A stretch of 64,000 nucleotides of DNA from Pseudobutyrivibrio sp. MD2005 (GTDB taxonomy: Bacteria; Bacillota; Clostridia; Lachnospirales; Lachnospiraceae), in contig NZ_JHXE01000012.1 in assembly GCF_000621865.1 (NCBI RefSeq), positions 1 to 64,000 of the forward strand, in the 5' to 3' direction. Numbering within the stretch: position 1 is the first letter of the stretch; each line of letters starts with the position of its first letter. Under the pieces are notes generated by a model that searched no databases, was not told where the DNA came from, and was given only the letters and a program-made list of their open reading frames with translations. The translations under genes were made by a program, and so were the position numbers. This document shows positions 1-46,460 of this stretch, piece after piece.

Positions 1-67
1 TTTACTAAAAAAAGGTTTTTGTTTCGTCTTAGAAACTAAATGAATTTCAAGGATACATGTCATTCAT

Positions 68-38574: not shown

Positions 38575-38593
38575 AACATAATAATTTTATTAA

Positions 38594-38938
38594 ATGGGTT
38601 AGACTGTGAGCCGGGTTATGTCTTTTAAAGTAGTCATCTATCTAGGACCATTGTCGCCAATGGCCTCAAGCGTTCAACCTAGCGCTGGCGGGCCGCGTAC
38701 GCGCTGTTTAGAACTTGCTTCGGATGGGGTTTACATGGCTATCATTGTTACCAATGATACGGTGGTCTCTTACACCGCCTTTCCACCCTTACTAATTTCA
38801 CCTTTTAGCGGTTTCTTTCTGTTGCACTATCCTTGGAGTTGCCTCCACCAGCCGTTAGCTGGCATCCTTGCCCTATGAAGCCCGGACTTTCCTCTCCCCT
38901 ATCATTACAATAAGGCAGCGACTACTCATCTAGCCCAT
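38594..38938 (-). ncRNA. rnpB: RNase P RNA, type A
   Basis: The catalytic RNA of RNase P, which matures tRNA 5' ends. On the minus strand it has GAGGAAAGTCCGGGCTTC (P4 5' strand), the ACAGAAAGAAACCGC segment, AGTAAGGGTGGAAAGGCGG, GTAAGAGACCACCG (type A P13/P14 region) and the P4 3' strand ACATAACCCGGCT. The ends were set by P1 pairing of ATGGGCTAGA (to 38938) with TCTAACCCAT (from 38594), one mismatch. About 345 nt, normal size. It lies 6 bp after the nucleoside kinase gene and has its own terminator. Confidence 0.95.
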
Positions 38939-45885: not shown

Positions 45886-45976
45886 CACTTTTTCTCAAAT
45901 TAAAGTGTCGTATTTTTACACGCTAAATCAGAATATTCTGACACAATCATGTTTCTGTCCATTATAGCTATTGAAG

Positions 45977-46288
45977 GTAAACATAACAAACGGACGACAC
46001 CAATTCGAAATCACCTGATTCCTAACTGGTGCCGCCCCTTAATATCGATCCCAATGGTCTATACCTCTCAGTCTCTTTTATTTTTATAACTTCAAATTTG
46101 TCGCGTGTAAAATCTTAATTCTCTGGTGGACTATACCTCCATTCACTAGATTTTAAATAATTACTAAACTTACTTGTCTGGTGGTCCGTACCTCCAATTC
46201 CTAAATTTCATCGATTACAAAAAATTGAATTTAATTCTCTGGTGGTCTATACCTCCCTTTCTAAAAAAATATTTTTCTGTCATTTGAT
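45977..46288 (-). ncRNA. Candidate non-coding RNA with four repeated hairpins
   Basis: No protein frame of note is seen. On the minus strand a promoter (46295-46322) predicts a start near 46288. Four copies of a short hairpin follow (see repeat entry), then a 14-bp stem made of GGGCGGCACCAGTT and AATTGGTGTCGTCC (46024-46037 with 45992-46005). That stem is fully paired only in minus-strand RNA, where four positions are G-U. Its tail GTTTGTTATGTTTACC could serve as a U-rich termination tract. The result is an RNA of about 310 nt with its own start and end, lying between two tRNA-Leu genes. It matches no RNA family I know. The remainder, 46323-46460, holds only AT-rich sequence. Confidence 0.5.
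46053..46256 (-). repeat. Four hairpin repeats, consensus GGAGGTATAGACCACC
   Basis: Minus-strand copies are at 46256-46241 (GGAGGTATAGACCACC), 46195-46180 (GGAGGTACGGACCACC), 46140-46125 (GGAGGTATAGTCCACC) and 46068-46053 (AGAGGTATAGACCATT). Each forms GG-A-GGT, a four-base loop, ACC-A-CC with a conserved A/A mismatch; the fourth keeps the outer pairs by G-U and A-U changes. Three copies are followed by CAGAGAATTAA or a close variant. Spacing is 61, 55 and 72 bp. Confidence 0.7.
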
Positions 46289-46294
46289 AAGTCT

Positions 46295-46322
46295 ATTATA
46301 TCGTGATACCAATAAATTGCAA
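46295..46322 (-). promoter_or_regulatory. Promoter of the hairpin-repeat RNA
   Basis: Minus-strand TTGCAA (46317-46322), 16 bp, perfect TATAAT (46295-46300). An overlapping TTGACT at 46322-46327 would give a 21 bp spacer and is less likely. Confidence 0.6.
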
Positions 46323-46460
46323 GTCAATTAATGAATATATTTTATTTTTGTCAGATATTTCAATGTTCGGTTAAATGTTTTGTGAATAATTTAGTATTGA
46401 ATTTTAAGTAAGGCCTCACGGTTTAAGGATAATAGTAATAATACCCAAAAAACAACCCCC

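Follow-up and report, generated by a model that had tools for sequence, protein, structure and literature searches.

The locus between two tRNA-Leu genes in the DNA analyzed here, a stretch of 64,000 nucleotides from Pseudobutyrivibrio sp. MD2005 that is referred to throughout as the window, raises the question of what is transcribed from it and to what end. A first-pass annotation had placed there a candidate for a new minus-strand RNA gene, composed of four repeated hairpins and possibly acting as an anti-Shine-Dalgarno decoy, a protein-binding sponge, or a tRNA-linked regulator. The gene itself is supported both by its conservation in the genus and the family and by the absence of an Rfam match at gathering scores. 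Its description and its role have been revised as outlined below.

The RNA gene in the window

The gene extends over positions 45977 to 46288 on the minus strand (~310 nt), its start near 46288 being placed from the -10 box. The proposed promoter, TTGCAA-16-TATAAT, was confirmed at 46322-46295. The -35 box, TTGCAA, occupies 46317-46322 and the -10 box, TATAAT, 46295-46300, both on the minus strand and separated by a spacer of 16 nt. Among 23 aligned loci of the genus the -10 box is unchanged, and TTGCAA is found in 22, the remaining locus (L016) having TTGAAA. Upstream of the promoter, at 46349-46383 on the minus strand, lies an element (ACAAAACATTTAACCGAACATTGAAATATCTGACA) that by eye is conserved in the genus loci and is a possible regulator site. 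AACAT occurs twice in this element, about one helical turn apart, and a search for a second genomic copy of its CGAACATTGAAATATCTGACA portion revealed none within three mismatches. At some distance, an RNase P RNA of class A (Rfam RF00010) is located at 38591-38937 of the window.

The four repeats, all on the minus strand, are positioned at 46241-46256, 46180-46195, 46125-46140, and 46053-46068, and the spacings of 61, 55, and 72 first given for them hold for these sequence repeats. The repeat core, GAGGTAYRGWCCAYY, occurs as four mismatch-free copies in the 3.09 Mb genome, all of them within this RNA, and no further such copy that might represent a target was found elsewhere in that genome. 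One copy with a single mismatch lies on another contig; the reversed-pattern control yielded seven at one mismatch or fewer.

Each of the first three repeats forms part of a start-less module (46231-46256, 46170-46195, and 46115-46140, minus strand). In modules 1 and 3, GAGG is followed by 9 nt and then by CCA GAG AAT TAA, and in module 2 by 9 nt and CCA GAC AAG TAA, with the stop codons located at 46233-46231, 46117-46115, and 46172-46170, respectively. The last module (46053-46068, minus strand) consists of the putative Shine-Dalgarno sequence GAGG at 46067-46064 and its spacer, and it overlaps the start codon of a micro-ORF at 46022-46054 on the same strand. This frame, which was overlooked when the locus was said to contain no protein frame, begins with UUG, encompasses 10 codons (MGSILRGGTS), and closes with TAG at 46024-46022.

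The intrinsic terminator stem-loop, at 45992-46037 on the minus strand, overlaps the end of the micro-ORF and is accompanied by a T-rich tail at 45975-45991. Its stem is formed by 14 bp, an A/G mismatch, and a further 6 bp. The G-U pairs of the stem are possible only in the minus-strand RNA, in keeping with the earlier observation that the 14-bp portion is perfect only there, and the fold z-score is -3.87 for the minus strand versus -0.74 for the plus strand. The stem also covaries in the genus. Indeed, in 23 loci (21 distinct) four pairs have changed on both sides, which was equaled in none of 500 shuffles; one of the five covariation measures, that of further pair types, did not rise above the shuffles (188/500).

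Distribution and genomic neighbors

A blastn search of 24 other genomes from the genus located the RNA in 22, with E-values of 2.5e-16 or lower. Relatives were also searched with covariance models, as the first-pass annotation had suggested. The first of these, R1, covers the last repeat and the terminator and was trained on the genus of the window only. It identified the RNA in 26 of 29 genomes of that genus and, mostly through weak matches, in 28 of 397 genomes of the family. The second, R2, covers the 3' end of the RNA, was built from 28 sequences, and identified the RNA in 254 of the 397 family genomes at E ≤ 0.05 (220 of 334 genera), a count that becomes 135 at E ≤ 1e-6 and 109 at E ≤ 1e-8. 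The named matches point to the Lachnospiraceae as the family searched. Most of the R1 family loci, when read individually, share a common plan in which the promoter, the first repeat, a linker that evolves fast, the last repeat, and the terminator follow one another. The 23 genus loci have from one to three upstream repeats in addition to the last one. Of 73 distant RNAs, 68 have within the preceding 600 nt a promoter-like TTGnnn-15..18-TAnnnT followed by a unit, the pattern being a permissive one.

An exact DNA pattern searched over named genomes gave 38 stretches, 23 of which are titled Lachnospiraceae; other genomes bearing it include those of Lacrimispora saccharolytica, Hominifimenecus microfluidus, Mordavella massiliensis, and an Eisenbergiella. 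Matches in Anaerotignum (L177), Glaciecola (L181), a Thiosymbion (L191), and Methylomicrobium (L192), with ORFs of 220, 3, 9, and 2 codons, respectively, were taken as chance. A class-wide search returned 62 of 391 genomes at E ≤ 0.01. Twelve of these belong to the family, and the 50 matches outside it are weak (E of 1.6e-5 or worse). Twenty loci of this search (L135-L154) were read, 19 from outside the family and one, L147, from within it. Locus L141 contains the motif and a five-codon ORF but neither an upstream module nor a visible terminator and was treated as a chance match, as were L148 (six codons), L139 (four), L144 (two), and L152 (none closed).

Some loci depart from the simple arrangement. 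Two copies of the RNA are found in tandem in L109 and L157 and in divergent orientation in L186 and L188. In a genus designated g223 (L128, L129, L131, and L133), the form of the RNA is divergent, with an additional stretch common to these loci (GGUGGCUUAAGCUUCACC...) preceding the last module, and may represent a subfamily. By eye, a ACAACUGAAUA stretch recurs ~40 nt before the last module in many of the distant RNAs, and a GUAC...GUACAAAG hairpin likewise recurs in many of them.

At the gathering cut-offs of Rfam 15 the RNA was unmatched in the window and in 36 relative loci, the matches elsewhere in these stretches being confined to tRNA, RNase P RNA, and a group II intron. At E ≤ 5 the window gave three chance-level matches, far below the cut-offs. 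The 6S RNA model was unmatched at the RNA loci of the window and the 36 relatives, and Clostridium phytofermentans has a separate, Rfam-predicted 6S RNA according to an excerpt of PMC5171806. An unnamed non-coding RNA beside cphy2658, whose start site according to that paper was the strongest in C. phytofermentans on both cellulose and corn stover, is possibly a sighting of the present RNA family. Literature searches returned no description of this RNA; the supplements of PMC8040213 list, as excerpted, thousands of candidate RNAs and may include it.

The genomic surroundings of the RNA vary. In the genus, tRNA-Leu(CAG) lies on either side of it, is more than 1 kb away in L011 and L020, and was not found in L023, where a search for any tRNA was negative. 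Among the relative loci a tRNA was present within the fetched stretch in only three of 36. A tRNA-Leu neighbor is a local trait of the genus rather than a property of the RNA, and with side and distance changing in this manner the proposal of a tRNA-linked regulator was abandoned. The next downstream ORF is on the same strand in 10 of the 23 genus loci and on the opposite strand in 11, with none seen in two; the corresponding numbers for the 73 distant RNAs are 51, 20, and two. The 71 distant downstream proteins form 41 clusters. The largest cluster holds 20, all encoded on the same strand (18 distinct proteins), and was assigned by Pfam to glycoside hydrolase family 3 (GH3) in five of five tested. 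Neighbors of the GH3 type are found, for example, downstream of L039, L100, L160, L174, L185, and L187. With respect to upstream ORFs, eight of 67 fall into one cluster, the one tested member of which is an amino acid kinase with ACT domains (aspartokinase-like). In the window, the RNA is followed, on the same strand, by a tRNA gene that, as judged by eye, has a promoter-like TTGACG...TATTAT of its own. Neither the genus nor the distant RNAs revealed a constant position ahead of a conserved gene or pathway, such as would mark a riboswitch or a leader attenuator. A role in cis is possible in part of the family; it does not fit the genus.

Shine-Dalgarno-like modules and the micro-ORF

According to the first-pass annotation, the repeats are hairpins whose outer pairs have changed in the fourth copy with retention of pairing. 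Their own fold is weak, with means of -1.2 to -3.5 kcal/mol, and the inner GG/CC pairs are invariant among the 21 distinct genus last units. Beyond the genus, outer pairing often breaks down, a G facing an A in 24 of 68 upstream units and in 16 of 60 last units, and no compensating outer pairs were seen there. The change in the fourth copy is thus not a general one, and a conserved hairpin was rejected as the defining structure beyond the genus.

The most constant parts of the repeat, in the 73 distant RNAs as well as in the genus, are GAGG and CCA, with GAGG and CC belonging to the expression by which the units were collected. The core GAGG...CCA looks like an extended Shine-Dalgarno module complementary to the 3' end of 16S rRNA. 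GAGG is read as a Shine-Dalgarno sequence because a start codon usually sits 9 nt beyond it in the last repeat, and this same spacing makes the anti-Shine-Dalgarno idea the best favored of the three roles originally proposed. The 16S tail, CGGCTGGATCACCTCCTTTCT, was read in two genomes of the genus; the 16S end was absent from the genome of the window and from 26 other genus genomes searched, rRNA presumably being missing from the assemblies. The tail is complementary to GAGGU and UCCA of the repeats and also to an AGAAAG-like stretch that precedes GAGGU in several of 12 units. Upstream units with GGACC have a mismatch to the 16S A at that place.

Calculated duplexes between the repeats and the 16S tail were compared with those of units in which GAGG was kept and the arms were shuffled. 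The mean energies are -22.5 versus -15.7 kcal/mol for the upstream repeats of the genus, -19.9 versus -14.8 kcal/mol for the distant upstream units, -17.4 versus -14.1 kcal/mol for the distant last units, and -15.3 versus -14.0 kcal/mol for the last unit of the genus. When the 5' flank of the tail was shuffled, duplexes as strong were obtained in 0, two, and one of 200 cases for the first three sets, respectively, and in 62 of 200 for the last unit of the genus, which was no better than shuffled tails; all units are related by descent, and these counts are not probabilities. Since shuffled flanks rarely match the real energies, pairing beyond the Shine-Dalgarno core is supported in three of the four sets, the gain over shuffled flanks being less than 1 kcal/mol in both distant sets. 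As excerpted from PMC13009471, the extended Shine-Dalgarno sequence of Staphylococcus aureus similarly continues its pairing with 16S rRNA past the core, in the direction of the start codon. There it is a feature of mRNAs, whereas here it would be a repeated module of an RNA gene.

The micro-ORF was followed at the last repeat of the distant RNAs. In 68 distinct distant units, the last GAGG is separated from the start codon by 9 nt in 57 and by 8-11 nt in the rest. The start codon is TTG in 52 and ATG in 16, and the frame comprises five codons in 50, six in 13, seven in two, nine in one, and 11 in two. Not counted among the 68 are five of the 73 distant RNAs that the ORF expression failed to match, their frames by eye being of 5, 5, 7, 7, and 5 codons; two genus matches of the expression that fell outside the last unit were set aside. 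For the hold-out, 59 further R2 loci were employed. A few-codon ORF with a Shine-Dalgarno sequence and a start at working distance, as in a minigene, was present at the 58 of these that fit the expression, and the one misfit has a spacer of 13 nt and, by eye, five codons. The 57 distinct hold-out units have five codons in 49, six in seven, and eight in one; spacers of 9 nt (31), 8 nt (13), 10 nt (6), and 11 nt (7); ATG (43), TTG (13), and GTG (1) as start codons; and TAG (29), TAA (24), and TGA (4) as stops. In the other two frames after the last GAGG the stop positions are scattered in the 68 distant units and the hold-out alike.

When pooled, exactly five codons are found in 100 of 126 distinct units, a figure to be read with the fact that the R2 training sequences had TAG-like letters before the terminator, which biases that model toward five-codon matches. 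Two other collections are free of this bias. The loci found with R1, whose training genus has mostly 10-codon ORFs, have five or six codons in 23 of 26 and seven in one, with two misfits. The DNA-pattern loci (35 of 39 matches, the four chance ones excluded) have five or six codons in 29 of 35, the lengths being five (21), six (8), seven (2), nine (1), and 11 (3). Across the 126 pooled units the start codons are TTG in 66, ATG in 59, and GTG in one. The 100 five-codon units end with TAG (50), TAA (37), or TGA (13); codon 2 is GAT or GAC in 82 of them, and codon 5 is GTT, GTC, or GTA in 55. The consensus peptide of the family is M-D-(S or E)-I-V. In the genus the frame adopts the 10-codon form in 22 of 23 loci, with five codons in L023, and the encoded peptide differs from that of the family. 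The micro-ORF ends at or inside the terminator stem and, in the window, inside it.

The upstream repeats display the same Shine-Dalgarno sequence and spacing with the proline codon CCN at the position of the start codon, the CC being fixed by the unit-collecting expression, and then usually two codons and a stop. The stop follows three codons in 29 of 41 distant upstream units and two codons in four, and in the genus an in-frame stop follows three codons in 41 of 43 distinct units. In the hold-out, a stop falls within four codons in 33 of 41 upstream units, compared with 9 and 15 units for the two alternative frames. Variation is greatest at the third positions of codons 1 and 3, and codon 3 is mostly ACN, except in the genus. 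The 75 nt preceding the unit contain no ATG, GTG, or TTG in the same frame for 35 of 44 distant units, the number for the genus being only 27 of 50. Because the third positions vary, the stop is kept in frame, and an ordinary in-frame start is often absent, the upstream modules might be translated from a non-start codon, with an extended Shine-Dalgarno sequence placing CCN in the P site and the ribosome reading CCN-RAR-ACN-stop; this we regard as a long shot. Loci L038 and L109 have an extra middle unit in which GAGG, CCA, and ATG are followed by two codons only and then a stop.

Proposed role and alternatives

We tentatively propose, with a confidence somewhat short of even, that this is a stand-alone RNA gene of the Lachnospiraceae whose product engages ribosomes, titrating or cycling 30S subunits and running a minigene at its 3' end. 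The basis of the proposal is sequence, namely the conservation of the RNA gene, the Shine-Dalgarno-like modules, the micro-ORF frame, the terminator, and the lack of a fixed neighbor. The abundance of the RNA, which the promoters alone suggest, its binding of 30S subunits in the cell, and its effect on translation are inferred. The RNA would be transcribed from a close-to-consensus promoter, and each repeat would serve as an extended Shine-Dalgarno module (often a purine stretch, GAGGU, and ..UCCA) pairing with the 16S 3' tail. The upstream modules would bind 30S subunits with CCN in place of a start codon, such that the anti-Shine-Dalgarno sequence would be occupied without normal initiation. 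In the last module, UUG or AUG would drive the micro-ORF, usually of five codons. Because translation of this frame would stop at the terminator stem or within it, the ribosome there would be expected to compete with the terminator. The net effect would be a titration or cycling of 30S subunits that damps translation initiation. The coding-like pattern that follows CCN in the upstream modules is not accounted for by simple 30S capture.

A module near the 5' end could, in addition, shield the RNA from 5' exonuclease in the manner of the STAB-SD of the Bacillus cry3A mRNA, which, in an excerpt of PMC4113751, blocks RNase J1. The first GAGG unit lies within 90 nt of the inferred RNA start in 42 of 64 RNAs, a position that might also suit such a role; of the upstream units, 35 of 44 distant ones but only 27 of 50 in the genus are without an in-frame start codon in the 75 nt before them. 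The resemblance would lie in a Shine-Dalgarno-like sequence close to the 5' end that can pair with 16S rRNA and does not direct translation. Unlike the STAB-SD described there, the present modules belong to a separate RNA gene, are several in number, follow a spacer-CCN-stop pattern, and end with one that has an ORF. The micro-ORF resembles minigenes and the two-codon mini-ORFs of PMC8708949 in having few codons and its own Shine-Dalgarno sequence. The mini-ORF in the excerpt of that report is a cis element of a toxin mRNA, whereas the frame observed here is at the 3' end of a stand-alone RNA and is family-wide.

Several other readings were weighed against the proposed engagement of ribosomes. 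The codon-level constraint on M-D and V, with synonymous GAT/GAC and GTT/GTC/GTA and a stop codon that is free to vary, would be expected if the product were the peptide fMet-Asp-(Ser/Glu)-Ile-Val (10 residues in the genus), which would target the ribosome or an enzyme or serve as a signal, with the RNA as its long mRNA. We consider this unlikely, though deserving of attention: the peptide of the window's genus is mostly MGSxxRGGxS, positions 3 and 4 vary widely, and the long upstream part with its extra modules would be superfluous. The frame might also serve in cis, a ribosome on the micro-ORF blocking the overlapping terminator and thereby permitting transcription to enter the next gene. 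Local folds of 128 RNAs, in which the first stem of at least four pairs starts no more than 22 nt ahead of the stop codon's end and no more than 1 nt beyond it, are consistent with such a leader, as is the same-strand orientation of the next ORF in 51 of 71 distant cases, 20 of which belong to the GH3 cluster. The opposite-strand neighbors in 11 of 23 genus loci, the promoter-like sequence of the tRNA gene downstream in the window, and the scatter of the 71 distant proteins over 41 clusters argue against it, and it is judged unlikely.

A trans-acting RNA of the RNAIII or csRNA kind, the repeats of which pair with mRNA targets, would likewise be a stand-alone gene with an invariant repeat core and fast-evolving linkers. 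The core, however, is Shine-Dalgarno-like rather than anti-Shine-Dalgarno and would not pair with ribosome binding sites, and hfq (PF17209) was matched in none of 80 RNA-positive family genomes, the control search being positive in five of 14 named genomes. An Hfq-bound small RNA or an Hfq sponge was rejected on the latter count. Gram-positive pairing RNAs often manage without Hfq, and base-pairing with mRNAs is viewed as distinctly unlikely. The dual-function RNAs SgrS and RNAIII resemble the present RNA in that a regulatory-looking RNA also carries an ORF; they differ from it in that here the ORF has about five codons and reaches the terminator, start-less Shine-Dalgarno modules are repeated, and no mRNA targets are known. 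The repeated motif in variable copy number, the linkers, and the gene's own promoter and terminator are features shared with sponges of the CsrB/RsmZ type, and at least two copies per RNA in many members, with an invariant core, would suit a protein recognizing GAGG-N6-CCA in the fashion of CsrB and CsrA. A csrA gene is present in 28 of 29 genus genomes and scored over the cut-off in 208 of 397 family genomes. Among the 109 genomes with a strong RNA match (E ≤ 1e-8), 64 have csrA and 45 do not, the remaining genomes being divided 144 to 144 (Fisher p = 0.14), a comparison in which R2-negative genomes may hold diverged copies of the RNA and only the 45 RNA-positive genomes without csrA are firm. 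Forty of these 45 are at least 90% complete. The GGA content of the 73 RNAs, 6.44 per 215 nt versus 5.69 in dinucleotide shuffles, is hardly above expectation. With neither csrA association nor GGA enrichment, the CsrA-like sponge of the first-pass annotation was rejected. The motif is moreover that of a Shine-Dalgarno sequence, and its last copy precedes an ORF with a start codon at near-fixed spacing, which better suits ribosomes than a protein; a sponge for an RNA-binding protein is deemed highly unlikely.

What appears to be new about this RNA is its architecture, in which several start-less Shine-Dalgarno-like modules are combined with a five-codon frame at the terminator, the function assigned to it being putative. 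If the proposal that it engages ribosomes is right, the Lachnospiraceae, which are prominent in the human gut and rumen, carry an RNA that is absent from Rfam 15, works via the anti-Shine-Dalgarno sequence of the ribosome, and contains an unusually short conserved ORF. It would then be a natural example of a 30S-titrating RNA in bacteria without an hfq match (0/80). Gene finders would normally pass over frames of five codons, and the micro-ORF demonstrates that comparison can reveal a conserved frame this short. The start-less modules pose a question of their own with regard to translation initiation. Were they indeed translated from CCN, an RNA spread over the Lachnospiraceae would initiate translation independently of a start codon or would use such initiation to trap ribosomes.
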